Positions 8,678 to 21,223 of a stretch of 24,402 nt of DNA are shown piece by piece. Each line of letters opens with the position of its first letter. Positions within the stretch are counted from its first letter, which is position 1. Origin of the DNA: a virus. The position numbers and the translations under genes were made by a program. The notes below the pieces were generated by a model. The model did not search any database. It worked only from the letters and a program-made list of their open reading frames with translations, and had not been told where the DNA came from. The DNA is taken from positions 1 to 24,402 of the IMG/VR virus record IMGVR_UViG_3300031649_000051. One strand, 5' to 3'.

Positions 8678-9435
8678 GGATTGCCCCCGGTAGCATCAGC
8701 TACACCGGTGTTTGGCCCGCCTGGATCAACGCTGGTGCACGAGCCCGGCCCCCACCCCAAATAGAGCGGCTCGAACGTCAGCAGGATCACGGCGGGATAG
8801 TGGGCGTTTTCGCGCTGGCTCGCAGGCGTGACACCGGGGTTGATGTCGCAAGTGCGGCCCATGCACAGGCCAGGCGCGGCGCTGAGCTTTTGCCGCTTGT
8901 AGACCCAGCCCAGGCCGCCGTTGTAGGCACTGAGCGCGAAGGCCATGCGGTCGCAATCGCTCTCGGCCTTGATGCGCAGCCACAACCATTGGTCGTAGAC
9001 CACCAGGGCGCGCATGGCCCATGTCGGGTTCAGGGGCGCTCGCTCGGCCAGGTCTGGCGACATGCCGCCGATCCATTGGGCCGTGGCGGGCATGAACTGG
9101 GTGAGGCCGACCGCCCCCACCGGGCTACGGGCATCGGCGCGCCAACGGCTTTCTTGGTGGATTTGCGCGGCGAAGGTGGCGACGGGTGCCTGCAAGCCCC
9201 AGACGCGCTGTGCCTCGCGCTTGAGGGTGCGCTTGTGCTGCTGGGCCTGGGGCGGGATTTCGGCGGCGTAGGCCTGGCCCGCGAACACGCTGTACGACAC
9301 GACCAGCAGCAGGAGGGTCAGCAGGACGGCACCGATGAACCGAAACTCCGAGCGCATCAGCTCGGCTTCGGTGCGGTGGTAGTCCTCCAAGCCTTGCAGT
9401 TGCTCGGGCGTGGGGATGCCGGGCGGGGGATTCAT
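8674..9435 (-). CDS. Phage lytic transglycosylase endolysin (SLT domain, membrane-anchored)
   Basis: A 253-aa muralytic enzyme. A transmembrane or releasable signal-anchor segment lies at about 33-52 (IGAVLLTLLLLVVSYSVF). The SLT domain follows: IHQESRWRADARSPVGAVGL at 92-111, with catalytic Glu95, then TQFMP, and LSAYNGGLGWVYK at 168-180. It cleaves the MurNAc-GlcNAc bond of peptidoglycan with 1,6-anhydro product formation. The N-terminal anchor suggests an export route not fully dependent on holin pores. Start overlaps the previous gene's stop (ATGA), with Rz and Rz1 following, giving a complete lysis cassette. Confidence 0.9.
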   Translation of the reverse strand: MNPPPGIPTPEQLQGLEDYHRTEAELMRSEFRFIGAVLLTLLLLVVSYSVFAGQAYAAEIPPQAQQHKRTLKREAQRVWGLQAPVATFAAQIHQESRWRADARSPVGAVGLTQFMPATAQWIGGMSPDLAERAPLNPTWAMRALVVYDQWLWLRIKAESDCDRMAFALSAYNGGLGWVYKRQKLSAAPGLCMGRTCDINPGVTPASQRENAHYPAVILLTFEPLYLGWGPGSCTSVDPGGPNTGVADATGGNP

Positions 9436-9794
9436 GCGCCCAGGCCCACGCAGATCAGCGCGGCGGCAACGATGATGGCGCGGCGGATCATGGCCATGCC
9501 GTAGTCGCGCCCCGAGACCAGTTCGGCCGTGGCGAACTCTTCGACCGGCGCGCCCTCGGGCGCCTTGTCTACTTCTTCCAGCTCGGGCAGCAGGTATTCA
9601 TGCGGCCGGTCGTAGGGGAACAGAGCCCGGTCAAGCCAGTAGCCGCCCCAGCCACCGAGGGACAGCAGGTGCGCCTTGTACAGCGACACGGCGATCAGGT
9701 TGCCGGGGAACTTGGCTTGCACGAAGAGCGCGATGGCCGAGAGCAGGATTGATGCGATGAGCCAGGGAAGAAGGCGAGTGAGGTTGCGCGACAT
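9432..9794 (-). CDS. Small membrane protein, probable holin
   Basis: A 120-aa protein with hydrophobic segments at about 10-27 (PWLIASILLSAIALFVQA), 32-50 (NLIAVSLYKAHLLSLGGWGG) and a C-terminal one (RRAIIVAAALICVGLGA), with a hydrophilic acidic loop between the second and third. Being the first gene of the operon and coupled by ATGA to the endolysin supports a holin role, which would be to permeabilise the inner membrane at lysis time. The sequence itself does not prove it; another lysis-timing or superinfection membrane protein is possible. Confidence 0.65.
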   Translation of the reverse strand: MSRNLTRLLPWLIASILLSAIALFVQAKFPGNLIAVSLYKAHLLSLGGWGGYWLDRALFPYDRPHEYLLPELEEVDKAPEGAPVEEFATAELVSGRDYGMAMIRRAIIVAAALICVGLGA

Positions 9795-9811
9795 GGGCTA
9801 ACTCCAGAAAT

Positions 9812-9838
9812 GAAAAAGGGCTTCTGAGAAGAAGCCCT
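9812..9838 (-). terminator. Rho-independent terminator after the repressor/exported-protein unit
   Basis: On the minus strand AGGGCTTCT-TCTC-AGAAGCCCT makes a perfect 9-bp stem with a 4-nt loop and continues directly into TTTTC. It follows the 90-aa gene (9896-10168) and precedes the lysis operon. It also lies downstream of the predicted late promoter at 9847-9883, so late transcripts must pass it. Confidence 0.85.
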
Positions 9839-9846
9839 AATGTCTG

Positions 9847-9883
9847 GAATTAGCGGGGTTGGGTCATGGTGAAGTGTTTCACC
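9847..9883 (-). promoter_or_regulatory. Late promoter element for the lysis/packaging operon (Plys-like), palindrome GGTGAA-N4-TTCACC
   Basis: Read on the minus strand, a perfect inverted repeat GGTGAA-ACAC-TTCACC (9868-9883) is followed by ATGACCCAAC and CGCT. The same 37-bp block occurs on the plus strand at 19984-20020 with 28/37 identities, ahead of the protease/capsid operon. Two copies, each upstream of a late operon and each pointing at it, suggest binding by the Mor/C-like activator encoded at 19286-19822, by analogy with Mu C sites at Plys and PI. No convincing -35 hexamer is present, as expected for an activator-dependent promoter. Repressor binding is the alternative. Confidence 0.65.
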
Positions 9884-9895
9884 GTCGGGCCGGTT

Positions 9896-10168
9896 TCAGG
9901 TGTCGTGGTCCTTCGCCGCTTTGCGCACGTAGTCGAGCAGGTCGCCACCGACCACACCGGCTTCGAACTCACGGTAGCCGCGCTGGTGGACGGCCGCGCC
10001 GATGGCGATCAGTTGCCACAGCTCTTGCTCGGTCAGCTTGGGGGCGATTTCCGACAAGCGCAGCGCGTACACGGCCAGCAGGTCGGCCCAGTTCGTGAAC
10101 TCCATCGGCTTGGTCTCGGCCATCATGAGTTGCACCAGGTCGGCGGGCTTGGTTGATGGAAACGCCAT
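9896..10168 (-). CDS. Small acidic protein of unknown function
   Basis: A 90-aa protein (MAFPSTKPADLVQLMMAETK...) with no recognised domain; it appears all-helical and ends in an acidic/basic tail (DYVRKAAKDHDT). The ATG at 10168 is chosen because GGGAG lies seven bases upstream; an in-phase extension to 10309 overlaps the upstream gene. It has no signal peptide, unlike its two neighbours. It is the last gene before the intrinsic terminator at 9812-9838 and is therefore most likely part of the unit that starts with the repressor. Confidence 0.75.
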   Translation of the reverse strand: MAFPSTKPADLVQLMMAETKPMEFTNWADLLAVYALRLSEIAPKLTEQELWQLIAIGAAVHQRGYREFEAGVVGGDLLDYVRKAAKDHDT

Positions 10169-10182
10169 GGTTGTCTCCCGAG

Positions 10183-10722
10183 TTAGTAACTGCCCCAGCT
10201 CACCACCACACCATTCATGACGTGGAAGTAGGCGCCCGCGCCCTGGTAGGTGCTCACCACGCCATCGGCCCGGTTGATCTGAGCCGTGAGCCTCACAGCG
10301 GTGACACATACCTTCACGCGTTCAATGTGCATGCCCACGCGGGGTGACTTGTAGTCGTCGCCGCACCGTTCCTTGGTGGCGGCCAGGACGGCTGCGGCTT
10401 TATCTGCAGCTCGGCGATCAGCCGCGGCTTGCGCTCGGTCTTCCGCCGCCATGCGTTTTTCGATTGCATCCCTTCTTTCCGCTTGCTCCGCCAGTTGCTT
10501 CTTACGCGCGGCGGCCCGCTCGGCTTGTTCTTCTTCCTGTGCCTCTCGCTGCGCCTGCCGCCGTTCATCCGCATCTTGCGCGGGTGTGCGGTACATCGAG
10601 CAGCCCGCTCCACGGCACATCCCATTGCTGAACTGCTGCGCGAATGCGGGGGCCATGACGCCGAGCAGCAGTGCAGCCGCCCACCTTGCCAAGATGGCTT
10701 TGTTCCATACAAGTTGCGGCAT
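10183..10722 (-). CDS. Exported protein with coiled coil and possible BamE/SmpA-like C-terminal domain
   Basis: A 179-aa protein with a signal peptide (basic N-terminus, AILARWAAALLLGVMAPAFA, cleavage likely after AFA). Next come a Cys-containing segment (MCRGAGCSMYRTP), an Ala/Glu/Arg/Gln-rich helix of about 65 residues likely to form a coiled coil, and a C-terminal module CGDDYKSPRVGMHIERVKVC, then DGVVSTYQG and YFHVMNGVVVSWG. The pattern GM...V ... NG.V is reminiscent of SmpA/BamE-type periplasmic domains; this is inference. It probably acts in the periplasm or envelope and may be made in the lysogen, since it lies downstream of the repressor on the same strand. Confidence 0.78.
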   Translation of the reverse strand: MPQLVWNKAILARWAAALLLGVMAPAFAQQFSNGMCRGAGCSMYRTPAQDADERRQAQREAQEEEQAERAAARKKQLAEQAERRDAIEKRMAAEDRAQAAADRRAADKAAAVLAATKERCGDDYKSPRVGMHIERVKVCVTAVRLTAQINRADGVVSTYQGAGAYFHVMNGVVVSWGSY

Positions 10723-10725
10723 CGG

Positions 10726-11088
10726 TCAGCCTTTCGAGTTCGCGCACTGTGCGGCGTACATCCGGTATTTGGTGTTCAGCTCATTCCAGTATTTCAGGTG
10801 CCGCGCGGCCTCGGCCTGGGACTGCGCCTCCCATTGCATTTCGATGTTGATGGGCATGGCGCGAAGCATGCCCGATGCGTCGAAACAACCCGTATCCGCT
10901 GGGCCGGCTGCAACCTGTGCATTGAGGCTTTCAGCCTGGGCGCGCAGGTCGCGCAAGCGGGCCTTGTCCGCGGACTGCCGCACGGTTTCGAACTGCTCAT
11001 GCAGAGCGTCCATTTTTTTCGCCACGGGCGGGGCGGCATGGGCCGAAAACGAAGCGATGAGGATTGCTGCTATGGCGATGGTTTTCAT
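10726..11088 (-). CDS. Exported helical protein of unknown function
   Basis: A 120-aa protein with a clear Sec signal peptide (MKTIAIAAILIASFSAHA, cleavage after AHA). The mature part is mostly helical (KKMDALHEQFETVRQSADKA) with two cysteines (DTGCFDASG and YAAQCANS) that may form a disulfide. No family recognised. It starts 6 bp downstream of the repressor stop, so the two are almost certainly on one transcript. Its stop is 3 bp before the next start. Together with the neighbouring exported protein it is a candidate for an envelope-directed lysogenic function such as superinfection exclusion. Confidence 0.78.
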   Translation of the reverse strand: MKTIAIAAILIASFSAHAAPPVAKKMDALHEQFETVRQSADKARLRDLRAQAESLNAQVAAGPADTGCFDASGMLRAMPINIEMQWEAQSQAEAARHLKYWNELNTKYRMYAAQCANSKG

Positions 11089-11094
11089 GTGTGT

Positions 11095-11727
11095 TTACCA
11101 CTCGTGAGTTGAAGCCCGGACCCGGCCGACGATGGACACGCTGTCCGTCTTCGCCAAATCGATATCGTAAGTTGGGTAGTCCGAATTCGCGCTGCTCACG
11201 CGCAGCAAACCTTCGGGCAAAAGCTGGCAGTACTTCACGAGCAGCTCGTCTCCCTGCAGCAGCACATAGGCGCGCCCGCTCTTGGGCAGGGTGTCGCTGA
11301 TGTCCACCAGCACCTTGTCGCCGTCGCTCAGCCTGGGCTGCATGGACTCGCCCACCACATCGATCACGCGCAGGTTGGTCGGTGACAGGCGCTTGCTGGC
11401 GAGCCACTTGCGGCTGAAGGCCAGACCGTCGATTTCTTCGTGGTCGCCATTCAACGCGCCAGGGCCGGCGCTGGCTGCTACCGCGTGCGAGGCGATCACC
11501 ACGAAGTCGCCATCGTTGCCGCCCATCTTTACGCCGGTGATCACGTAGTTCACGTCCATGCCGGCTTCGTGGGCGCGCTTCAGGTATTCGGCATCCGGTG
11601 CGCGGTCGCCAGATTCGTAGTTGAACTGCGTGGTTCGACTCACCCCGCACAGGACGCCGAAGTCCGTGGGGGCAATGCGCAGCCGCGTGCGTTCCGCTTT
11701 GAGACGTTCTCCCATTTCGACGTTCAC
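11095..11727 (-). CDS. Prophage repressor, XRE HTH plus LexA/CI-type S24 autopeptidase
   Basis: A 210-aa CI-like master repressor. Residues 5-60 form an XRE helix-turn-helix (LKAERTRLRIAPTDFGVLCG, then VSRTTQFNYESG). The C-terminal S24 domain has Ser128 in VVGESMQPRLSDGDKVLVD and Lys165 in DELLVKY, 37 residues apart exactly as in LexA (119/156), and an Ala87-Gly88 cleavage-site candidate in AASAGPG. RecA-stimulated self-cleavage, hence SOS induction, is therefore predicted; this differs from Mu, whose repressor is not of the LexA type. The GTG start at 11727 has GGGAG nine bases upstream; ATG at 11715 is an alternative. It faces the early operon across the control region. Confidence 0.92.
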   Translation of the reverse strand: MNVEMGERLKAERTRLRIAPTDFGVLCGVSRTTQFNYESGDRAPDAEYLKRAHEAGMDVNYVITGVKMGGNDGDFVVIASHAVAASAGPGALNGDHEEIDGLAFSRKWLASKRLSPTNLRVIDVVGESMQPRLSDGDKVLVDISDTLPKSGRAYVLLQGDELLVKYCQLLPEGLLRVSSANSDYPTYDIDLAKTDSVSIVGRVRASTHEW

Positions 11728-11934
11728 AGACGTGTACTCCCGTGTTGCATTTTTGGTTCACGGTCAATTCACGGTGAATCCAAGGCGTGGAATATACGTT
11801 CAACAACGCGGACTCGTAAGGGAAAACTCCTACAAAAGGTGAACGCTTCGTCTCAATTTGCAACCAAATTCCCGAAATCTGTACTTTCTTCTTGCAAGTA
11901 CCGTTTTGTGGACTCATAATCCATCACAGTTCAA
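11722..11934. promoter_or_regulatory. Repressor operator cluster and divergent control region
   Basis: The intergenic stretch 11728-11966 carries GTTCA-type half-sites: GTTCAC at 11722, GTTCACGG at 11756, ATTCACGG at 11767, GTTCA at 11798, inverted GTTCACC (as GGTGAAC) at 11838, and GTTCA at 11930. TTCACGGT is directly repeated at 11757-11764 and 11768-11775, one helical turn apart, and ATTCACGGTGAAT (11767-11779) is a perfect odd-length palindrome. A minus-strand -10 candidate TATATT (11796-11791) may serve the repressor gene, with a weak -35. Repressor binding here would turn off early transcription and tune its own. Confidence 0.6.
11892..11920 (+). promoter_or_regulatory. Early promoter (sigma-70 type), rightward
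   Basis: TTGCAA (11892-11897), a 17-bp spacer and CATAAT (11915-11920) make a good sigma-70 promoter. Transcription would start near 11927, about 40 bases before the first early gene, and a GTTCA half-site at 11930 overlaps the start region. It points into the transposition operon and lies inside the operator cluster. Confidence 0.7.
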
Positions 11935-11966
11935 TAACTGGCATTGCACAGTCAACGGAGATACAG

Positions 11967-12173
11967 ATGGGAAACAGCAAACCGCGCGCCGAAGCCGCTG
12001 GAATCAGCCCCGATTCCGCCAAGCAAGCCCTTTACGCGAAGGGCATCACCCTGAAGGAATTCGCAACCCGCCACGGCTTCAAGTACCGCACCGTGAGCGA
12101 GGTGGTGCGTGGCGTCAACAAAGGTCTGTACGGCGAGGGCCACAAGGTCGCCGTGAAGTTGGGCATCAAGTGA
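11967..12173 (+). CDS. Ner/BcepMu gp16-like DNA-binding protein
   Basis: A 68-aa protein whose centre (GITLKEFATRHGFKYRTVSE, then VVRGVNKGLYGEGHKVAVKL) is a helix-turn-helix typical of the BcepMu gp16 family of phage-associated proteins. As first gene of the early operon next to the repressor it occupies the position of Ner/Cro, which limits early and repressor transcription during lytic growth. ATG at 11967 is preceded by GGAG; an upstream in-phase ATG at 11892 coincides with the promoter and is rejected. Confidence 0.85.
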   Translation: MGNSKPRAEAAGISPDSAKQALYAKGITLKEFATRHGFKYRTVSEVVRGVNKGLYGEGHKVAVKLGIK

Positions 12174-12187
12174 AGAAAGAAACCGAA

Positions 12188-13201
12188 ATGGCAAAGAAAC
12201 AAGCAACTGAAGTGGTCGAGGTCAAAACGGCGAACGTTGTCCGATTTGAGATCAGCGATGAGATCGTGTCGTACGCGGCCCGTCTTGGTGCCGATCTCCG
12301 TGCCCCCCTGGAAGACCGGGCGGACCGCGCAGCCGAACACATGAACCGGTCGCAACGCCACGAACTGGCAACGGGATTGCTGCTCGGGTCTATCAAGGCG
12401 GAATGCGAGCATGGCCAGTTCCTGAGCATGCTTGAAGAGCGGGGTTTCGAAGAGCGCAGCGCTCGCCGTGCGATGCAGTACGCACAGTTCATCCTCTCCC
12501 GTTCAGACGACGAGCGTGAATTCCTCGTGGGTCTGCCGAAGACGAAAGTCATGGCGCTGGCTGGTGCCGATCTGGAGGTCGTGGACGACATCCTGGAAAA
12601 CGCCGATGGCGACATCGCCGTGCTCGGCGTCCGACAGCTTCGCCTGGAACTCCGCCGCCTTCAGGCCGAGAAGACCAATGCCGAAGTGGACCGCGACAAG
12701 GCCGTCGCCGAGCGCGATGGCCTCTCCAAACAACTGCGCAAGCGGCGCCGTGACGAAGAAGACAACGACGGCGTGCCGCTGGTGATCGCCGACGTGCGGG
12801 CCGAAGCCGCCGCCCTGGTGAAGAAGGCCGAGCTGGCGCTCACCAGCCTGTACCCGCTCGGCGTGGAAATGGCCGGCCTGGGCGGGCATGACGAAGCCGG
12901 TGTGTGGGTGCAGCCCAGCATGCGCCTGGCGCTGTCCGGCCTGGTGGCCCTGCGCGTGCAAATGGATGGGCTGATCGGCAGCTACGTGCAGGCCCTGGGC
13001 GACAAGGCCGACAAGCTCAAGAGCCACCCCGACAGCCTGGCCTTTTTGGACGCCAGCGAGATCAAGACCGTGGCCGAGGACTGGGAGCGCCTGACCGCGC
13101 TGCACCAGCACGAAGCTGCCCTGCGTGCCCACGAGCGCGATCAGGCCAAGCCCAAGGGCAAGGGACGCCCGAAGGCAGCGCCTGAAGCGCCCAAGGTCTG
13201 A
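12188..13201 (+). CDS. DUF3102-like early protein with coiled coil
   Basis: A 337-aa protein. Residues 50-115 (RHELATGLLLGSIKAECEHG, QFLSMLEERGFEERSARRAM, QYAQFI) resemble the DUF3102 region: a helical DNA-binding-like segment in which an organism-specific HGQFLxxLE motif is followed by a helix-turn-helix. A charged coiled coil follows (LELRRLQAEKTNAEVDRDKA), then a helical C-terminus ending in a basic Lys/Pro/Arg tail (KPKGKGRPKAAPE). It probably binds DNA and sits just before the transposase, as in other BcepMu-like early operons. Its precise role is unknown. ATG at 12188 is the first start after the gp16-like gene; upstream in-phase sequence is non-coding control DNA. Confidence 0.78.
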   Translation: MAKKQATEVVEVKTANVVRFEISDEIVSYAARLGADLRAPLEDRADRAAEHMNRSQRHELATGLLLGSIKAECEHGQFLSMLEERGFEERSARRAMQYAQFILSRSDDEREFLVGLPKTKVMALAGADLEVVDDILENADGDIAVLGVRQLRLELRRLQAEKTNAEVDRDKAVAERDGLSKQLRKRRRDEEDNDGVPLVIADVRAEAAALVKKAELALTSLYPLGVEMAGLGGHDEAGVWVQPSMRLALSGLVALRVQMDGLIGSYVQALGDKADKLKSHPDSLAFLDASEIKTVAEDWERLTALHQHEAALRAHERDQAKPKGKGRPKAAPEAPKV

Positions 13202-13236
13202 GCCCACCGATCACCCACCCCCCAACAGGTGACCAC

Positions 13237-14895
13237 ATGGGCTCAGTCCTCAAACTTGCGAACGACGTGCGGCAGATGAACGATCTACCCGCAGCGCTGA
13301 ATGCCGACCCCTGGGCGACGGCCAGCGAAGAACAGCGCCGCGTGGCGGGCTTCCGCGAAGCCCTGCTGCAGCCGCTGGCCGACCTGGTGAACCAGGGCAC
13401 CAGCATCAACCGCGCGGCGGGCCTGCTGGTGGCCCAGCTCGCCAACGGCACGGCCGAGATGCGCATCAAGCACATGGCCGCCATGCTGCACGCCGATGGC
13501 GCAATGAGCATGCCCACGGCCAAGCGCTGGCTGTCGGCCTACCTCAAGGGCGGCAAGACCGCGCTGCTACCGAGGCACACCGGCCGCGTGCGGCAGGACT
13601 ACGGCTGGGAAACCCGCGCCGTGGCGCTGTACAACCTGCCGGGCAAGCCAGGTTATGCGGACGTGACTTCAAAGCTGATCCAAGAAGGCTTTGAAGACGT
13701 GACCGAAAGCCGGGTGAAGCGCTACCTGAAGGCGCTGCCGGCCACGCTGGGCAAGCTGAGCCCGGCGCGCATCGGGCCGCACTTGCACCGCCTTACGCGG
13801 CAGAAGTTCCAGCGGCGCAGCCTGGCCGAGGTGCTGGTGGGCGAAATCTACGCAGGCGACGGCCACACGGCCGACTGCTACGTTGCGGACCCGAACACCG
13901 GCAAGCCGTACCGCCCGGAGCTGACTTGCTGGATCGACATCAAGAGCAGTTATCTGGCTGGCTGGTGGCTCAGCGAAAGCGAAAGCACCGAGTCCACCCT
14001 GTTCGCCATGAGCCATGCCATGCGCATGTTCAACCACGTGCCGGCCTGGGTGTATGTGGACCGGGGGCCGGGCTATCGCTCCAAGTTGCTGAGCGAGAAA
14101 GGCACGGGCTTCTATGACCGCTTCGACATCGGCCTGATCGGCGCGCTGCCGGGCAACCCACACGGCAAGGGCTGGATCGAACGCTTCTTCCGCACGGTGC
14201 GGGACAAGCACGACAAGTTCTTCGCCAACGGCACGGTGTACTGCGGCGACGACATGGCGCCCGAGACCAACCGCCGCCTGAGTGCCGACCTGGCGATGGG
14301 CCGGCGCACGCTGCCGAGCCTGAAGAGTTATGTGGACAGCTTCACGGCCTGGCTGGAGCACTACCACGACCAGCCGCAGGACAAGCTGGACGGCCGCACA
14401 CCCGCCCAGGTGTGGGCCGGGCTGCAGCCGGTGCCGGTGGAAAGCGGCATGGACGCCATTGTCCGGCCTCGCGTTGAGCGCACCGTGCGCCGCCAGACGA
14501 TTCAGCACCAGAAGCGCTTCTATTACGCCGAGGCACTCGCACTCTTCGATGGCCAGAAGATGGTGATGGAGTACGACTTGCACCACGACAGCCATGTGTG
14601 GATTTTCGACGGCAAGGGCCGCTTCGTGGCCGAAGCCCGCCTGGTCAACACCATCGGCGTGCTGCCCACCAGCCGCCTCGAAGAAGGCCGTGATCGCCGC
14701 CTGGCCGGACAGCTCAAGCGCCTGGAACGCAAGGTGGACGAAGCCAAGGCACGGCGCAACGACCCGATCACCGCCAGTGACCAGGCCGCAGCCATCGAGT
14801 CCCTGCAGCCACTGCTGCCCCCCGCCCCACCGCCGCCGCCCACCAGCGCGGATGTGATTGACATCGACGTACTGAACTGGAGGAACGACAAGTGA
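13237..14895 (+). CDS. DDE transposase, MuA-like
   Basis: A 552-aa transposase that pairs the phage ends, nicks them and joins them to target DNA for integration and replicative transposition. The catalytic triad is visible: Asp208 in YAGDGHTADC, Asp275 in WVYVDRGPGYRS and Glu315 in NPHGKGWIERFF (D-66-D-39-E spacing). N-terminal helix-turn-helix regions (residues 70-190, MSMPTAKRWLSAYLKGGKTA and later VTESRVKRYLKALP) would bind the end repeats. After the core come a Mu-type beta-barrel region (YDLHHDSHVWIFDGKGRFVA) and a helical tail with a proline run (LLPPAPPPPPTSADV), the part that should contact the MuB-like ATPase. GTG of the ATPase gene overlaps its stop. Confidence 0.95.
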   Translation: MGSVLKLANDVRQMNDLPAALNADPWATASEEQRRVAGFREALLQPLADLVNQGTSINRAAGLLVAQLANGTAEMRIKHMAAMLHADGAMSMPTAKRWLSAYLKGGKTALLPRHTGRVRQDYGWETRAVALYNLPGKPGYADVTSKLIQEGFEDVTESRVKRYLKALPATLGKLSPARIGPHLHRLTRQKFQRRSLAEVLVGEIYAGDGHTADCYVADPNTGKPYRPELTCWIDIKSSYLAGWWLSESESTESTLFAMSHAMRMFNHVPAWVYVDRGPGYRSKLLSEKGTGFYDRFDIGLIGALPGNPHGKGWIERFFRTVRDKHDKFFANGTVYCGDDMAPETNRRLSADLAMGRRTLPSLKSYVDSFTAWLEHYHDQPQDKLDGRTPAQVWAGLQPVPVESGMDAIVRPRVERTVRRQTIQHQKRFYYAEALALFDGQKMVMEYDLHHDSHVWIFDGKGRFVAEARLVNTIGVLPTSRLEEGRDRRLAGQLKRLERKVDEAKARRNDPITASDQAAAIESLQPLLPPAPPPPPTSADVIDIDVLNWRNDK

Positions 14896-15890
14896 GCACC
14901 CCCCAAGCACAAACCTCGCTGCCTGGCATGTCCAGCGGCAAAGTGAATGCGGCCTACACGCCGCAGGACATCGACAAGATCGGCACGGTCAAGCGCTGGC
15001 TGGACGACAACGCCAAGAGCCGTTCGTGGTTGTCCAAGAAGTCGGACATCCCGAGCGGCACGCTCAGCCAGATCATGAGCGGCAAGTACGTGAGCAGCCC
15101 GACGCGGCAGCTCAACCAGGTGCTCTCCGTACTGGAGACGGAAACCGAGCGCCTGAAGGACGGCACGCCCGGCTATGTGAAGGGCAGCGTGCACTGCTTG
15201 ATGAAGGTGGTGTGCGACCGGACCCGCAAGCACGCGAACATCGGCGTGGTGACGGGTTATGTGGGCGTGGGCAAAACCCGCTTCGGCAAGGAATACCGTG
15301 CCGCGCACCCGATGACGCTGATGGTGGAAGCCAGCCCGCACATGACGCCTGGCGTGCTGCTCACCGAGCTGCTGGAGCAACTGAACAACGCGGTGCCGCC
15401 CGGGCTGGACCGCAAGTTCCGCGAGCTGACCCGCGTGCTGCGCGGTACCAACTACCTGCTGATGGTGGACGAAGCCGAACGCCTGAGCAGCAGCGCCCTG
15501 GAATACCTGCGCCGCATCCGCGACATGGCGACCGTGGGCGTGGTGCTGATGGGCACGGAGAAGCTCACCGCGCTGATCAAGCCGCAGCACGGCCAGTTCG
15601 ACCAAATCCGCTCACGTGTGGGCATGTGGCCCAAGACGATTGAAGGCATCACCCGCGACGACGCCGACGACATGGTGCGCGCCGCACTGGCCGACATGGG
15701 CGACGTGCCCGACGACATGCTGGACGCGCTGTGGGCCTACTGCGACGGCAGCGCCCGCGTGCTCAACGAAAACCTGATCGGCGCCCTGCGCGACTACGGA
15801 ACTGGCCGTGCCCTCACCGCCGATCTGGTTCACAGCCTTGCCAGCAAGGTGCTGTTCATGGCCCGCCCGAAGATTGAAGGGGTGAAATGA
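14892..15890 (+). CDS. AAA+ target-selection ATPase, MuB-like
   Basis: A 332-aa protein. An N-terminal helix-turn-helix (about 40-80, SWLSKKSDIPSGTLSQIMSG) precedes an AAA+ domain with Walker A GYVGVGKT (122-129), Walker B LLMVDE (189-194) and a sensor I region (VVLMGTEKLTAL). MuB polymerises on DNA with ATP, chooses the target and stimulates MuA, giving target immunity. The start is GTG at 14892, overlapping the transposase TGA (GTGA) with GGAGGA upstream. The HTH plus ATPase layout and position directly after the transposase leave little doubt. Confidence 0.94.
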   Translation: MSTPQAQTSLPGMSSGKVNAAYTPQDIDKIGTVKRWLDDNAKSRSWLSKKSDIPSGTLSQIMSGKYVSSPTRQLNQVLSVLETETERLKDGTPGYVKGSVHCLMKVVCDRTRKHANIGVVTGYVGVGKTRFGKEYRAAHPMTLMVEASPHMTPGVLLTELLEQLNNAVPPGLDRKFRELTRVLRGTNYLLMVDEAERLSSSALEYLRRIRDMATVGVVLMGTEKLTALIKPQHGQFDQIRSRVGMWPKTIEGITRDDADDMVRAALADMGDVPDDMLDALWAYCDGSARVLNENLIGALRDYGTGRALTADLVHSLASKVLFMARPKIEGVK

Positions 15891-16039
15891 TGCGCCCTCT
15901 TGGATGGATCAAACGCCGGGCGCGCCGCCTGATGCGCTTCTATGGGCTCACCAGCCGCCGCGTGGCGGTAATGGAGGCCGCAGGCGACTACCGCCGCTTC
16001 GTGGGCATGCCGCTCATTCTGGTGCAGGGAGGGCGCTGA
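15887..16039 (+). CDS. Small basic early protein, 50 aa
   Basis: ATG at 15887 overlaps the ATPase stop (ATGA); the 50-aa product is very basic (MMRPLGWIKRRARRLMRFYG...) with eleven arginines, and ends 1 bp before the next ATG. Codon use matches the flanking genes. No known domain; translational coupling and lack of any other use for this stretch make it a probable gene. Confidence 0.6.
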   Translation: MMRPLGWIKRRARRLMRFYGLTSRRVAVMEAAGDYRRFVGMPLILVQGGR

Positions 16040-16040
16040 C

Positions 16041-16319
16041 ATGGGACGCCACATCGACCATGAAACCCTGATGCTGTGGGTGCGCCTGGTGCAGGCCGGG
16101 GACTACCACACGCCGAGGCAAATCCGCGAGGTCTGGTATCCGAACCTGACCACGCACGAGGTGCGCGACATGCTGGAGCGCCTGACCGCGAACCGGATGG
16201 TGCGCCAGAAGCGCGAGGCCTGCAAACACACCGTGTACGGCGTGACGACGCTGTGCATCGCCCCGCCCGGCTACGCGCACATGATGCAGCCAGCCGGCCG
16301 CCAAGGGGCCGCAGCATGA
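16041..16319 (+). CDS. Small winged-helix-like early protein
   Basis: A 92-aa protein with a helical pattern suggestive of a winged helix-turn-helix (YHTPRQIREVWYPNLTTHEV, then RDMLERLTANRMVRQKREAC, KHTVYGVTTL): a recognition-helix-like stretch followed by a beta hairpin. GGAGGG lies eight bases before ATG 16041. Its stop overlaps the following ATG (ATGA). It may regulate transcription, but no named family is assigned. Confidence 0.75.
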   Translation: MGRHIDHETLMLWVRLVQAGDYHTPRQIREVWYPNLTTHEVRDMLERLTANRMVRQKREACKHTVYGVTTLCIAPPGYAHMMQPAGRQGAAA

Positions 16320-16534
16320 TGGCCCGCATCTTCCGCCAGGTGTACCTGCTCGCCATGCGCTGGCTGTGCTTCTTTGCCTTGGCGCTGTGCCTGGCCGTGC
16401 TGGCCGGCACGGTGGCCATGGTGGCCTCCGTCGTGGGCTCGGCATTGCTCGCAGTGTGGGCGCTGGCCGACGCCGCGGTGCCGCTGACGCTGGGCGCGCT
16501 GGACTCACTCTGCGCGCTGGGAGGCTTGTTATGA
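16316..16534 (+). CDS. Small integral membrane protein
   Basis: A 72-aa protein (start ATG 16316, overlapping the previous stop; a second ATG follows at once) dominated by hydrophobic segments: LLAMRWLCFFALALCLAVLA, GTVAMVASVVGSALLAVWAL and a shorter C-terminal one. A few positive residues precede the first segment (MMARIFRQ), suggesting the N-terminus stays inside the cell. Membrane proteins of this type in early regions are sometimes exclusion proteins, but there is no direct evidence for this one. Confidence 0.72.
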   Translation: MMARIFRQVYLLAMRWLCFFALALCLAVLAGTVAMVASVVGSALLAVWALADAAVPLTLGALDSLCALGGLL

Positions 16535-17196
16535 GCCTCATCAACACCTGCCAGGTGTGCGGCGCCGAAGAGAGCCTGGACGGCCTGCTGCTGCGCATGA
16601 TCGAAGACGACACGGTGCGCCGGCTGATCGGCGACGTGATCACCAAGAGCTTTCCGCTCGGCGGGCTGGTGGTGCGCTACCTGCGCCTGCACAAGCCCGA
16701 GAAACAGAAGCTGCGCATGGGCACCGTGGGCAAGCTGCTGATGGAGCTGGTGCCCGACGTGCAGCGCGCCGCCATCGAGCGCAACGGCCGCATGTGGGCC
16801 GTGAGCGAGGCGCAGTGGCAAGCCGCCTTCCAGGCCGTGTTCGACCAGGCCGGCAAGGGCACGGTGGTGCTGCCGCTGCAGGGCAATGGCTACCTCTACA
16901 GCGTGCTGATGCGCCTGGCCGACCGGGCCGAGGCCAAGCAAGAGGTGCAGACCGAGGCCGAGCGGCGGCACGGGCCGAAGCACACCGCGAGCATGCCTAG
17001 CAACGTACCGGACATCGTCGCCGTGCAGCAGTTCGCTCAGTTCGGCGGCAAAGACCCTGCGCTGGCGAAGCTGGACGAAGACAGCAAGAAGGCCGCACCG
17101 ATGCCTGAGTCGGTGCGCGAGCGCATCGCGGCACTGAAGCGCGGCAGCGCCACTAATTCCACCAACCAAGAGCAACCATCAAAGGACCAAGCATGA
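16531..17196 (+). CDS. Conserved early phage protein with N-terminal CxxC
   Basis: A 221-aa protein beginning MSLINTCQVCGAEESLDGLL; the CxxC near the N-terminus has no obvious partner pair, so a complete zinc site is not evident. RYLRLHKPEKQKLRMGTVGK and LMELVPDVQRAAIERNGRMW form a recognisable block that I recall from early regions of BcepMu-like phages, without known function. The C-terminal third is polar and possibly disordered. ATG at 16531 overlaps the TGA of the membrane protein gene (ATGA), and its own stop overlaps the DUF3164 start. Confidence 0.78.
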   Translation: MSLINTCQVCGAEESLDGLLLRMIEDDTVRRLIGDVITKSFPLGGLVVRYLRLHKPEKQKLRMGTVGKLLMELVPDVQRAAIERNGRMWAVSEAQWQAAFQAVFDQAGKGTVVLPLQGNGYLYSVLMRLADRAEAKQEVQTEAERRHGPKHTASMPSNVPDIVAVQQFAQFGGKDPALAKLDEDSKKAAPMPESVRERIAALKRGSATNSTNQEQPSKDQA

Positions 17197-17819
17197 CGAC
17201 TGAAAACACCATCCCCCCGGGCTATTGGGCCGATGCCAATGGCACGCTGACGCCGGTCAGCAAGATCAAGGAAATCGACAAGGACCGCAGCCGCACGGTG
17301 GAAGAGCTGTGCAACCAGGCCAAGGCCGAAAGCGCGCGCCTGGCCGGCTTCAAGCTGGCCGCGAAGGAAGTGTTCGACGCCTTCATCGGCCGCAGCGCCG
17401 CCGAATACAAGGTGGAGCTGCGCGGCGTGAAGGGCAAGGGCAACGTGACGATCACGAACTACGACGGTCGTTACAAGATCGTGCGCCAGGTGTCCGACAC
17501 CCTGGTGTTCGACGAACGGCTGCAGGCCGCGAAAGTGCTGATCGATGAGTGCATCCAAGGCTGGAGCAAGGGCAGCAACGCCAACATCAAGGCCTTGGTG
17601 AACGATGCCTTTCAGGTGGACAAGCGCGGCAAGATCAGCACCGGCCGCGTGCTGGGCCTGCGCCGGATCGACATCACGGACCAGAAGTGGCTGCAAGCCA
17701 TTCAGGCGATCAGCGACAGCATGAGCGTTGCCAGCACGAAGAGCTATATGCGCTTCTACGAGCGCGACGATGCCTCGGGCGAGTACTTCCCGATCAATCT
17801 GGATGTGGCGGCTGTATGA
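17193..17819 (+). CDS. DUF3164 family early protein
   Basis: A 208-aa protein that matches DUF3164: PPGYWADANGTLTPVSKIKE at the start, a central KVELRGVKGKGNVTITNYDG with KIVRQVSDTLVFDERLQAAK, and IKALVNDAFQVDKRGKISTG with VLGLRRIDI near the end. Members occur in the early operons of Mu-like phages (often mislabelled sulfate transporters). Function is unknown; location after the transposition genes suggests a DNA-related role. No Gam-like host-nuclease inhibitor is seen elsewhere in the window. Confidence 0.88.
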   Translation: MTTENTIPPGYWADANGTLTPVSKIKEIDKDRSRTVEELCNQAKAESARLAGFKLAAKEVFDAFIGRSAAEYKVELRGVKGKGNVTITNYDGRYKIVRQVSDTLVFDERLQAAKVLIDECIQGWSKGSNANIKALVNDAFQVDKRGKISTGRVLGLRRIDITDQKWLQAIQAISDSMSVASTKSYMRFYERDDASGEYFPINLDVAAV

Positions 17820-18250
17820 GCACGAACCTTGTTCAATGCACGCGCTGTCGCGTCAAGCACACGGAGGCCGAGCGCGTTGATCACCCCATCCGTGCCGGCA
17901 TGACCGAATCGCACTGCCCGCGTTGCGACTGCAAAAGCTTCTATGACCTGCGGCCGCAGGTGGCCTGGTGCTGGGCATCGGGCCTGATCGAGATCGGCGA
18001 TGCCATGCCAGAGCCAGGTCCAGATGGTGGAGGCGCTATCAAGATCGCCAGTGGTCCCAAAGCCAACCTGAAGGCGCGGCTGGAGGTGGTTGCGCGGCAT
18101 GGCTATGGCGAAGGTGCCGGCCAGTTGCTCGTGCCTGGCGTGCCCGAGGCGGATGGCCAGCAGGCCAAGGGCGATGCCCTGGCTGCTTGGCTCAAGTGGT
18201 GCGGCGCCTTCCGCCGCAGCGGCGTGGTGTTCGCCAAGGAGTTCGCATGA
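17816..18250 (+). CDS. Hypothetical early protein with zinc-ribbon-like cysteines
   Basis: A 144-aa protein with CTRCRVKHTEAERVDHP and SHCPRCDCKSFYDLR: two CxxC pairs about 24 residues apart, consistent with a zinc ribbon in the first 45 residues. The rest (LEVVARHGYGEGAGQLLVPG, WLKWCGAFRRSGVVFAKEFA) is unfamiliar. ATG at 17816 overlaps the DUF3164 stop and its stop overlaps the next ATG, showing tight coupling. Confidence 0.75.
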   Translation: MSTNLVQCTRCRVKHTEAERVDHPIRAGMTESHCPRCDCKSFYDLRPQVAWCWASGLIEIGDAMPEPGPDGGGAIKIASGPKANLKARLEVVARHGYGEGAGQLLVPGVPEADGQQAKGDALAAWLKWCGAFRRSGVVFAKEFA

Positions 18251-18429
18251 AAAGCTTCGAACAACTCGCCCGCGCCGCCTACAGCGCCTACCTGAAGGTC
18301 TGCCAAGAGGCCGACGAAGAAGGTCTGGCCGGCCACGCCCTGACCTACGACGAACTGGACGAAGTCTCCAAGAGCGCCTGGCGCTCCGCCGCCATGGGCG
18401 TGGTGGCCGAGGTCTCCACGGTTCGCTAA
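18247..18429 (+). CDS. Small acidic helical protein, 60 aa
   Basis: ATG at 18247 overlaps the previous stop (ATGA). The product (MKSFEQLARAAYSAYLKVCQ, then EADEEGLAGHALTYDELDEV, SKSAWRSAAMGVVAEVSTVR) is acidic and helical with no named domain. It is the last gene before the terminator at 18479-18505. A stretch like TYDELDEVSKSAW is seen in small phage proteins with unknown roles. Confidence 0.68.
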   Translation: MKSFEQLARAAYSAYLKVCQEADEEGLAGHALTYDELDEVSKSAWRSAAMGVVAEVSTVR

Positions 18430-18478
18430 CCGGTTGTCTCCTTGATCGATGGACCGGACGGCCGGCCTTGATCTTTTC

Positions 18479-18505
18479 CCCCGGCGCTTCGGCGTCGGGG
18501 CTTTT
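18479..18505 (+). terminator. Rho-independent terminator inside the early region
   Basis: CCCCGGCGC-TTCG-GCGTCGGGG (9-bp stem with one G-U pair, UUCG tetraloop) is followed by CTTTT on the plus strand. It separates the early transposition genes from the 90-aa gene, GemA and the Mor-like activator. No T run follows on the opposite strand. Confidence 0.85.
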
Positions 18506-18517
18506 CTAGGACCAAGC

Positions 18518-18790
18518 ATGAACACCAACGACCTTATCAACAAGGCCCAGGGAATCGCCCGAACCCTGAGCTACAACGACAAGCCGCAAGGCGCCGCCAA
18601 GCACATGCTGCACGAGCTGTGCCACCGCCTGGGCGCGCGTACCGTTCGCATCCACAAAAAGAGCGACGGCTATCTGATGGTCACGCTGTACGGCGCATCT
18701 CGGTACCTGACGCGCCGCGAGGTGTTCATGTGGCGTTGGTTCGGCGTGGCGCCTGCCGGCGTGGTGGTCGAGCCGCTGGCGCAGGATTGA
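18518..18790 (+). CDS. Hypothetical phage protein, 90 aa
   Basis: ATG at 18518 lies 12 bp after the terminator, with AGGA upstream. The 90-aa product has helical and strand parts (QGAAKHMLHELCHRLGARTV, then RIHKKSDGYLMVTLYGASRY) and no known domain. The spacing to the terminator leaves little room for an independent promoter, so its expression probably depends on readthrough. It is followed 11 bp later by the GemA gene. Confidence 0.7.
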   Translation: MNTNDLINKAQGIARTLSYNDKPQGAAKHMLHELCHRLGARTVRIHKKSDGYLMVTLYGASRYLTRREVFMWRWFGVAPAGVVVEPLAQD

Positions 18791-18801
18791 GGGCCGATGC
18801 G

Positions 18802-19284
18802 ATGACGATGCACCCTGAACCACGCAAACGCGAGCTGGGCCTGATCCACATGGCGAAGGCGCAGCTTGGGCTGAGCCGGGAGGACTACGAGTTCGTGATC
18901 GGCCAGGTGACGCGCACCAAGAAGACCAGCGCGGCCGACCTGACCGATGCGGAGCGCAACACGCTGCTGCAGCACTTCAAGCGCATGGGCTTCCAGATCA
19001 GGCCGAAGGCTGGCTCACCACGGCCCCTCAATGAGCCGGTGAATCGGAAGATGCGGGCGATGTGGTACGCCCTCGCCGAGGTCGATGCCGTGAAGAAGCC
19101 GGCCGATCCGCTGGCCTGCGACAAGGCCATCGAAGCCTGGGCGAAGCGGCAGATCAACGAAGGCAACGCGCGGCGCGAGCTGGGCCAGCTCGACGCGCTG
19201 CGCTTCGCCACGGGTGAGCAGTTGCACAAGCTGATCGAAGAACTGAAGCAATGGGGGCGCCGCGTGAAAGCGGCCATTGACTGA
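18802..19284 (+). CDS. GemA-like regulatory protein (DUF1018)
   Basis: A 160-aa protein: RKRELGLIHMAKAQLGLSRE and DYEFVIGQV at the N-terminus, NRKMRAMWYALAEV in the middle and LRFATGEQLHKLIEELKQWG at the C-terminus are the familiar blocks of Mu GemA. GemA is an early Mu protein that affects host gene expression and DNA supercoiling. In Mu it also sits just before mor. The stop lies 1 bp before the Mor-like start, so they are probably cotranscribed. Confidence 0.88.
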   Translation: MTMHPEPRKRELGLIHMAKAQLGLSREDYEFVIGQVTRTKKTSAADLTDAERNTLLQHFKRMGFQIRPKAGSPRPLNEPVNRKMRAMWYALAEVDAVKKPADPLACDKAIEAWAKRQINEGNARRELGQLDALRFATGEQLHKLIEELKQWGRRVKAAID

Positions 19285-19285
19285 C

Positions 19286-19822
19286 ATGGACATCACGACC
19301 ACCGCCATCCCAGCCGCGCCGCCTGCTGTGCCCACGCCGGCCAGCAGCACCTGGCGCCGCGACCTGACGCTCAACCCGGACGCATTGCCCGCCGCGATCC
19401 GGGGCCTGGCGGAAGCTATCGGCGGCATCGACACCTTGCGCCTGATCGGCCAGCACGGCGGCGCGCGCGTGCAAGTGCCGAAGAAGCCGACCGAGGACCA
19501 CCCGCTGCGCATGGTGATGAGCGCGGCAGGCTTCGAGCTGCTGGTGCGTCTCTACGGCGGCGAACTGCTGGACCTGCCCAAAGGCGATGCTTTCCTGCGC
19601 CGGCTGCGGCACGACCAGGTGCGCCAGTGCCGCGAGGCCGGCCTGAAGGTGGATGACATCGCCGAAACGACGGGCTACACGCGTCGGCATGTGATCAACA
19701 TCCTCAGCGGGCGCGGCGACCTGAAGGACACGTGGACCATGGACATGTTCGAAGAGACGAACCCGGTCAGCACGCCGCAGGCCGGCAGGGCGAATGACCC
19801 GTTCGGCCTGGCTCGCCGGTAA
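19286..19822 (+). CDS. Mor/C-family transcription activator of late genes
   Basis: A 178-aa protein of the Mor transcription activator family. The N-terminal dimerisation half (LPAAIRGLAEAIGGIDTLRL, then IGQHGGARVQVPK) is followed by a helix-turn-helix (CREAGLKVDDIAETTGYTRR, HVINILSG). Mor and C of Mu bind DNA next to a weak promoter and bring in RNA polymerase. Only one such protein is seen here, so it may drive all late genes, most likely through the shared palindromic element found at 9847-9883 and 19984-20020. An extra tail of about 25 residues follows the HTH (MDMFEETNPVSTPQAGRAND). TTG at 19277 is a poorer alternative start. Confidence 0.88.
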   Translation: MDITTTAIPAAPPAVPTPASSTWRRDLTLNPDALPAAIRGLAEAIGGIDTLRLIGQHGGARVQVPKKPTEDHPLRMVMSAAGFELLVRLYGGELLDLPKGDAFLRRLRHDQVRQCREAGLKVDDIAETTGYTRRHVINILSGRGDLKDTWTMDMFEETNPVSTPQAGRANDPFGLARR

Positions 19823-19862
19823 GATTTCCGCATCGGGCACCTCCCCGACTGCTCGACATAGC

Positions 19863-19899
19863 GTTTAAAACCGCCTCAGACCCGTTTAAAACGCGTTTT
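19863..19899. repeat. Short direct repeats with an overlapping palindrome before the late promoter
   Basis: GTTTAAAAC is repeated at 19863-19871 and 19884-19892, 21 bp apart (two helical turns), each flanked by GC-rich bases. AAAACGCGTTTT (19888-19899) is a perfect palindrome overlapping the second copy. It lies in the AT-rich part of the 213-bp gap between the activator and protease genes and could be a protein-binding site. Nothing else in the window matches it. Confidence 0.5.
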
Positions 19900-19983
19900 C
19901 CGGGCCTGGGTGGCACATCCGGTGGTCTCAAGGCTGCGAACGCCTTCCAGGCCCTCCCCAATCTCCCAGATTTCTGACTCCTT

Positions 19984-20020
19984 GGTGAAGCGTTTCACCA
20001 TGACCTAACAGCGCTCGCTC
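19984..20020 (+). promoter_or_regulatory. Late promoter element for the protease/capsid operon (PI-like), palindrome GGTGAA-N4-TTCACC
   Basis: GGTGAA-GCGT-TTCACC (19984-19999) is followed by ATGACCTAAC and CGCT, sharing 28 of 37 positions with the minus-strand element at 9847-9883. The palindrome ends 36 bp before the protease start. No clear sigma-70 -35 is present. It is the natural target for the Mor-like activator encoded immediately upstream, though repressor binding is not excluded. Confidence 0.65.
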
Positions 20021-20035
20021 GGCAAAGTTCAGGTC

Positions 20036-21223
20036 ATGCCCAAGACCGCAACCACTGCCAAGAAAACCTCGACCCCACCCGCGACCGCGAAAGGCCTCAA
20101 AGGCTGGGTCGAGGTTTTCAAGGCCGGCCCACACACCGACAGCGCCAGCAAGCAGATCACCTTCAGCCAGGCCGACCTGGACCAGATGATCGCGAACCAC
20201 GAGCTGGGCCGCGCGCCAGCCGTCATCGGTCATCCCAAGAAGAACGCACCCGCCTATGCATGGGTCGATGCCTACAAGCGGGAGGGTGACTCGCTGTTTG
20301 CCAAATTCACCGATATCAATCCCGCCTTCGAAGCCGGCGTGCAGTCGAAGGCCTACCGCAACCGCTCGCTGAGCGTGTTCCAAGACAAAGACCACGGCTG
20401 GCGCATTCGCCACGTCGGTTGGCTCGGCGCTGTGCCGCCTGCCATCGATGGCCTGGCGGATGTGGAGTTCGCTGGCGACGACGCCGAGGTGCTGGAGTTC
20501 TCCGCGCCAGGTTATGGCCTGGTGTGGGCGGTGGAGTCCATCGCCCAACTGCTGCGCAGCCAGCGCGAGGCCTTGATTGCCGACAAGGGCATCGAAGCGG
20601 CCGACCTGGTGCTGCCGCAGTGGCGCATCGACAGCGCGTTCGAAGCCGTCAACCAGGCGCGCACCCAGTTCCAAGAGGCCGACACCACAGCCGGCCGGAT
20701 GTTTTCACAACCCAACGACACAGGAGTTTCCATGCTCACGACCGAAGAGCAGCTTGCCGCTGCGAAAGAAGAAGGCCGCAGGGAAGCGGAGGCCAAGAGC
20801 GCCGCCGAGTTCGCCGCCGCCAATGCAACGCTTCTGAAGCTGCAGGCCGAGCGCCAGGCGGAGCGCATCACCACGCAGATCGCCGGCTGGAAGGCTGGTG
20901 GCAAGGTGCTGCCGGCCGAGGAAGCCGGCCTGGCCGAGTTCATGGCGTCCATCGAAGACGCGGGCCAGGAGTTCAGCTTCAGCGCGCACGACGGCAAGGA
21001 AGCCAAGAAGACGCCCGCGCAGTTCTTCGCCGACTTCATGGGTGCCCGTACGGCGCTGGTGAAGCTGGGGGTGAAGAGCGAGGACGATCCCACGGCTACC
21101 GCCCTGGACAAGTCCAGCCACGTCGCCATCACCGCCGCAGCCCGCGAATTCCAGGCATCCGAAGAGAAGGCGGGTCGCGTGATCCCCTTCGAAGCTGCCG
21201 TTACGTCGGTCATGGCGCGCTGA
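20036..21223 (+). CDS. Prohead protease (Mu I-like) with nested scaffold
   Basis: A 395-aa protein. The N-terminal half matches the Mu gpI prohead protease: GWVEVFKAGPHTDSASKQIT at the start, APAVIGHPKKNAPAYAWVDA containing the conserved GHP, and SLFAKFTDINPAFEAGVQSK with AYRNRSLSVF. It matures the prohead by cleaving the scaffold. The C-terminal 163 residues (from Met233) are a charged helical scaffold, also made separately from an internal start (see 20732). It is the first gene of the plus-strand late operon. Confidence 0.9.
   Translation: MPKTATTAKKTSTPPATAKGLKGWVEVFKAGPHTDSASKQITFSQADLDQMIANHELGRAPAVIGHPKKNAPAYAWVDAYKREGDSLFAKFTDINPAFEAGVQSKAYRNRSLSVFQDKDHGWRIRHVGWLGAVPPAIDGLADVEFAGDDAEVLEFSAPGYGLVWAVESIAQLLRSQREALIADKGIEAADLVLPQWRIDSAFEAVNQARTQFQEADTTAGRMFSQPNDTGVSMLTTEEQLAAAKEEGRREAEAKSAAEFAAANATLLKLQAERQAERITTQIAGWKAGGKVLPAEEAGLAEFMASIEDAGQEFSFSAHDGKEAKKTPAQFFADFMGARTALVKLGVKSEDDPTATALDKSSHVAITAAAREFQASEEKAGRVIPFEAAVTSVMAR
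20732..21223 (+). CDS. Nested scaffold protein (Mu Z-like), internal in-frame start
   Basis: An in-phase ATG at 20732 inside the protease gene has CAGGAG seven bases upstream and opens a 163-aa product (MLTTEEQLAAAKEEGRREAE...) that is Ala/Glu/Lys-rich and helical, as expected of a scaffold. In Mu the scaffold gpZ is likewise translated from inside the gpI gene in the same frame. The strong site where the protease part ends and the scaffold part begins supports real internal initiation. Confidence 0.72.
   Translation: MLTTEEQLAAAKEEGRREAEAKSAAEFAAANATLLKLQAERQAERITTQIAGWKAGGKVLPAEEAGLAEFMASIEDAGQEFSFSAHDGKEAKKTPAQFFADFMGARTALVKLGVKSEDDPTATALDKSSHVAITAAAREFQASEEKAGRVIPFEAAVTSVMAR

Follow-up and report, generated by a model that had tools for sequence, protein, structure and literature searches.

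How does a phage switch on late operons that lie apart on opposite strands, and how does it keep its lysis genes silent when they lie right behind the repressor operon? Both questions are raised by a 24,402-base virus record that is incomplete; we refer to the whole of it as the window. The window has a KS10- and TJ1-like gene layout: the lysis/packaging and repressor operons run leftward, and the rightward part holds an early operon ending with GemA and a Mor-like gene, followed by the protease and capsid genes. At its left end (1-1479) lies a MocR/GntR-like regulator-aminotransferase gene, identified from its translation only, and this stretch is probably host DNA flanking the prophage.

The element in the window and in related phages

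The left copy of the element (GGTGAAACACTTCACCATGACCCAACCCCGCT / GGTGAAACACTTCACCATGACC) is read on the minus strand from 9883 and the right copy (GGTGAAGCGTTTCACCATGACCTAACAGCGCT / GGTGAAGCGTTTCACCATGACC) on the plus strand from 19984. A sequence-only reading had counted 28 of 37 positions as identical between the two, which we confirmed exactly over the first 37 positions, and had described each copy as facing its own operon, as it does: the minus-strand copy is oriented toward the holin, endolysin, terminase, portal and MuF genes and the plus-strand copy toward the protease and capsid genes, with the holin and the protease as the first genes of the leftward and rightward late operons, respectively. 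That reading saw no other copy by eye, and the window indeed holds none. The perfect palindrome occurs at two places only, a 21-base version with up to two mismatches gave no third, and 300 dinucleotide-preserving shuffles of the window contained zero full motifs and zero bare palindromes. The description of the element as a two-copy one, however, is an artefact of the truncated record, as complete relatives have four; two more are predicted in the missing right end of the prophage, ahead of the tail-chaperone and baseplate genes. Moreover, of the letters first assigned to the element after the palindrome, ATGACC is part of it family-wide but YAAC and CGCT are not: YAAC does not belong to the conserved element because an exact 26-base motif ending in CYAAC matched no viral contig, and the CGCT of the left copy is a piece of a hairpin arm.

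Table 1. Positions of the element, the hairpin and the neighboring genes in the window
Feature	Position	Strand	Remarks
Holin	9432..9794	-	PF13272 6.6e-24; phrog_1528 2.9e-26
Long hairpin	9797..9854	-	Outer stem 9854-9843 / 9808-9797
Inner hairpin AGGGCTTCT/AGAAGCCCT and T-run, intrinsic terminator	9817..9838	-	From a terminator scan; conserved in relatives
Predicted -10 hexamer GACATT, left copy	9839..9844	-	Predicted start site about 9832
-35-position hexamer ATGACC (TGAC core), left copy	9862..9867	-	17 bp from the -10
Activator palindrome, left (holin) copy GGTGAAACACTTCACC	9868..9883	-	Predicted -51 to -36
Repressor and three close-packed same-strand genes	9896..11727	-	Short junctions; same order in TJ1 and KS10
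Repressor, S24-type	11095-11727	-	PF00717, phrog_4
Mor-like late activator	19277..19822	+	Directly after GemA; exact start codon uncertain; phrog_836 5.9e-24
Activator palindrome, right (protease) copy GGTGAAGCGTTTCACC	19984..19999	+	Conserved before the protease in TJ1 and other relatives
-35-position hexamer ATGACC, right copy	20000..20005	+	Position in the family alignment
Predicted -10 hexamer CAAAGT, right copy	20023..20028	+	Predicted start about 20035
Head-maturation protease	20036..21223	+	phrog_976 5.7e-77

The motif search in related phages that had been proposed as a check found the element kept at homologous late-operon sites. Curvibacter phage TJ1 has four copies, located before the holin, the protease, a tail-chaperone gene and a baseplate gene, and the site before the holin is shared by the window, TJ1, other loci and, in degenerate form, KS10. 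A scan of IMG/VR gave 57 stretches with the 21-base core, with many copies coming from closely related phages; lone palindrome matches in unrelated contigs that lack the -10 were left out of the set. Complete or near-complete phages carry about four copies each together with exactly one phrog_836 gene, the family matched by the Mor-like gene of the window. Exactly one such gene is present in TJ1 and in all 12 multi-copy IMG/VR records of at least 17 kb, and it is absent from five long records with a lone coincidental match. The element, its copy number and its association with the Mor-like gene are thereby established by sequence comparison.

More distant phages retain the arrangement to varying degrees. 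With a matrix built from the TJ1-type set, the three best matches in Burkholderia phage KS10 are the sites before the protease, the holin and the baseplate gene, and no fourth, tail copy was found; the KS10 palindromes are diverged but stand at matching sites. The protease site is kept in four further KS10-type phages and the holin site in two of the four. In Alteromonadaceae phage B23, a de novo search for repeated palindromes, run without the motif, returned CCTGAA-N4-TTCAGG before the lysis and protease operons, each copy with a -10 (TAATCT or TAGTCT) and a palindrome centred near -44.5, as well as a third copy, with one mismatch, ahead of a tail gene. The B23 Mor-like protein is about 30% identical, and a TGAA-N4-TTCA core is common to the three lineages. 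The repeated-palindrome search gave no clear repeated palindrome in Stenotrophomonas phage QH16. Rhizobium phage RR1-B has four near-identical palindromes, CCGGAA-N5-TTCCGG, before late operons (11533, 18997, 26074 and 31111); these look terminator-like, as hairpins, may also act as activator sites, and lend weak support.

In one subgroup of loci (L029, L033, L035 and L051) the lysis side carries two late promoters. The second of these points, in L033, toward MuF and is followed by a leader with a Shine-Dalgarno sequence, from which it follows that the head genes are arranged unlike those of TJ1.

Promoter anatomy and the Mor-like protein

The element consists of a 16-bp palindrome, GGTGAA-N4-TTCACC, followed by ATGACC and, after a 17-bp spacer, by a -10 of the form nAnnnT. 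Of 48 oriented copies, taken from phages that encode phrog_836, 44 show an A at offset 40 together with a T at offset 44, whereas any other offset gives 10 or fewer, and the -10 was absent from every search pattern. TGAC occupies offsets 17-20 in 41 of the 48, a count that is partly built in, given that the pattern used to retrieve some of the copies itself included ATGAC. When offsets 39-44 are read as the -10, ATGACC falls at -35 to -30 and the centre of the palindrome at -43.5, a spacing established by the aligned copies. The central letters of the palindrome vary freely (ACAC, GCGT, CCAG, GTAG). We also considered the conserved ATGACC as a start codon and rejected this, as it runs into immediate stops in many copies.

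The palindrome is thus placed where Mor binds in Mu: in the Pm promoter, the Mor site is a 16-bp inverted-repeat element whose centre lies at -43.5 (PMC4390567). The late promoters of Mu, four in number, are under C (PMC4461284). The defining arrangement of a Mor/C-dependent promoter, a dyad near -43.5 upstream of a non-consensus -10, is found here, and the likeness to the C-dependent late promoters of Mu that had been drawn from the window is supported. Judged from sequence, the element is an activator-dependent late promoter of KS10/TJ1-type transposable phages.

The Mor-like protein had been named as the obvious regulator, and the evidence agrees: the palindrome stands at the Mor position, -43.5, copies of the element track the Mor-like gene, and binding is predicted. 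The gene immediately follows GemA, the place that Mor occupies in Mu. The window protein matches the phrog_836 profile at 5.9e-24, the same profile that Mu Mor (1e-10) and Mu C (2e-11) match, and hhalign aligns it with Mu Mor and C at E = 5e-5. The Pfam Mor model is matched by 9 of 10 members of the alignment (best 7e-6), with the window protein itself falling short of that model. An AlphaFold model (pLDDT 63) is too poor to be matched to the Mor fold, an intertwined dimer plus HTH, and Foldseek and a search of the PDB gave nonsignificant, short HTH matches only. Profile comparison places the regulator in the Mor/C superfamily. Because the phrog_836 search found no second Mor/C-family gene in these phages, the two-step Mor-to-C relay of Mu is probably a single step here.

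The holin hairpin and the start codons of the late genes

The repressor and three further genes run on one strand straight into the holin promoter, an order shared with TJ1 and KS10. The three genes behind the repressor (9896-11088) are without clear function, one of them matching phrog_17831, and TJ1 has a thermonuclease-like gene at the corresponding slot, which may be a variable slot for lysogenic cargo.

Between the repressor operon and the holin gene, the RNA can form a long hairpin (-31.3 kcal/mol, z = -6.9 in the window) whose outer stem covers the holin Shine-Dalgarno sequence (9805-9802) and whose 5' arm overlaps the -10. The hairpin is conserved by sequence comparison: z ranges from -5.6 to -6.9 across the window and three relatives, and compensatory changes are found in 8 or 9 of 17 pairs among 13 sequences, counted on a hand-made register (the stems came out misaligned when the holin leaders were aligned with MAFFT). 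A search of Rfam found no match. The predicted late start (about 9832) lies in the 5' arm of the inner hairpin, and RNA beginning there folds no better than shuffles; the predicted gain in Shine-Dalgarno exposure in the late RNA is modest and exposure is not higher in every relative. This layout, with a late promoter in the 5' arm and the Shine-Dalgarno sequence in the 3' arm, matches that of T4 gene e. In T4 genes e, soc, 49 and I-TevI the late promoter lies in the 5' arm of a hairpin that masks the ribosome-binding site (RBS), and only the late RNA is well translated (PMC3014915, PMC2988022). The hairpin is probably a barrier to read-through from the repressor operon next to it and should keep the lysis genes silent in the dormant phage. 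That it is an ordinary terminator of the repressor operon, exerting no translational control, is unlikely. The inner stem and T-run do form a standard terminator, and the KS10 equivalent has no clear Shine-Dalgarno sequence covered, but the outer stem, which is dispensable for termination and in which the -10 region is base-paired to the holin Shine-Dalgarno sequence, shows compensatory changes, and it is retained in TJ1 even though a good T-run is missing there. A hairpin lock would explain how a lysogen survives with lysis genes right behind its repressor operon.

The other late genes are arranged differently with respect to the promoter. An ATG is present at offsets 50-52, the predicted +1/+2, in all 8 copies before the protease, all 14 before the tail chaperone and 15 of the 16 before baseplate genes (37 of 38 across the three classes), but in none of the 12 before the holin; the random expectation is about 3%. 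This start-codon position is a matter of direct comparison. In the window, the protease ATG is at offset 52, the predicted +2, and position 20036 is the first possible start past the upstream stop in the list of open reading frames. Judged from the position of the -10, 38 of 56 copies have a predicted leaderless start, and in phage B23 the lysis and protease genes start six bases past the -10. Upstream pairing with the anti-Shine-Dalgarno sequence is weak, with a median energy of -2.05 kcal/mol, whereas other TJ1 genes have a median of -6.1 kcal/mol (p = 3e-11, an optimistic value given that the copies are related). Because their ATG is at the predicted +1/+2 and there is little Shine-Dalgarno sequence, the late mRNAs of the protease, tail and baseplate classes are predicted to be leaderless.

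These starts could be misplaced, with the true transcription start further upstream or an upstream start codon in use, so that leaders exist after all. We judge this improbable, more so than the terminator reading of the hairpin. Some tail genes do share their frame with the ATG or GTG of the -35 hexamer, and the TJ1 tail chaperone is annotated from the -35 hexamer start codon; in many copies, however, the -35 ATG is out of frame or meets a stop at once, the ATG at offset 51/52 is where homology to TJ1 proteins sets in for the tail and baseplate classes, and upstream Shine-Dalgarno sequence is scant.

The motif corrects several annotated gene starts. For the KS10 protease the annotated start is a TTG at 18120, overlapping the promoter palindrome, and the ATG at 18177 (offset 52), a short way past the -10, fits the family. 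In TJ1 the promoter itself contains the annotated starts of the protease (18593, offset 25) and the tail chaperone (25586, offset 16). In addition, several predicted leaderless genes start with CA-rich codons (ATGAACACACAAAGC; TJ1 25622 and relatives), which might help leaderless initiation.

Alternative binding proteins, the model and known systems

The sequence-only reading had further suggested that the S24-type repressor binds the late palindromes and silences the late operons directly, a proposal that neither geometry nor conservation supports. The early region does contain the same TTCAC/GTGAA letters (TTCACGGTCAATTCACGGTGAA at 11757-11778, with candidate operators TTCACGGTCAA and TTCACGGTGAA), but the half-sites are everted and differently spaced, TTCAC-1-GTGAA versus GTGAA-4-TTCAC in the late palindrome. 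No GTGAA-N4-TTCAC-like site with up to two mismatches was found in the window's early regulatory region, and no TTCAC-N-GTGAA site in the early regions of TJ1 or the other loci searched, where the late palindrome is unchanged. With everted half-sites and early and late sites that are not co-conserved, we rejected repressor binding to the palindrome, and direct silencing by the repressor is highly improbable. It is just as hard to credit a host regulator (e.g. a LacI/Cra-type protein): Cra-type sites have a TGAA..TTCA frame, which TGAA-N4-TTCA resembles, but the centre of the palindrome varies freely, as that of LacI-family sites is not known to do, copies come four to a phage together with a Mor-like gene that the phage itself encodes, and the position is the Mor-like -43.5.

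We return to the Mor-like protein as the activator. After induction, the early operon would yield this protein, a dimer of which would bind the 16-bp palindrome at -43.5 and act with sigma-70 RNA polymerase, which would use ATGACC as its -35 and nAnnnT as a weak -10. About four late operons (holin/packaging, protease/capsid, tail and baseplate) would be turned on at once, and mRNAs of the protease, tail and baseplate classes would be leaderless, with the start codon at +1/+2. RNA reading through from the repressor operon would run into the terminator and have its holin site masked; RNA from the late promoter would start inside the 5' arm, lack the hairpin and leave the holin translatable. We regard this model as a whole, with its Mor-type late promoter, leaderless starts and holin hairpin lock, as very probable. 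We lean only slightly toward its strictest form, in which the activator site, the -35, the -10 and the start codon make up one rigid module of ~55 bp family-wide, giving leaderless protease/capsid, tail and baseplate mRNAs, and the lysis operon alone has a leader, locked against the repressor transcript by a promoter-terminator-RBS hairpin.

The analysis extends the earlier description of the locus by the further copies, the -35/-10 anatomy, the start codons that predict leaderless mRNAs and the hairpin in which the left copy is embedded, and it provides a late-promoter motif and a named candidate regulator for KS10/TJ1-type transposable phages. It also leads to the prediction that leaderless mRNAs serve for the synthesis of abundant structural proteins; in laboratory E. 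coli, leaderless mRNAs are usually linked with weak expression or with repressor genes.

Burkholderia phage KS10 and Curvibacter phage TJ1 share the gene layout of the window and have the element at homologous places. We found no promoter analysis in the KS10 paper (PMC2628397) and, in open-licence full text, no papers describing these promoters. T4 gene e works in this way at the translational level, its late promoter likewise lying in the 5' arm of an RBS-masking hairpin, but phage and promoter are unrelated; here a terminator is nested within the hairpin, and it is the repressor operon that would give rise to the unwanted transcript. Mu Pm and Mor offer the same 16-bp dyad at -43.5, a weak -10 and a Mor-family activator directly after GemA. 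The half-site differs, however, and Pm is one middle promoter, described as without a -35, whereas here about four late operons are served, a TGAC -35 core is present and the start codon is at +1/+2. Mu lys differs in having a leader with a Shine-Dalgarno-like sequence before its ATG. Finally, Mu Plys, PI, PP and Pmom with C present the same overall scheme, four late promoters under one Mor/C-family activator placed before lysis, protease and tail genes, but no separate C gene was found here, and the elements of the phages described here are much more uniform than the Mu late promoters.
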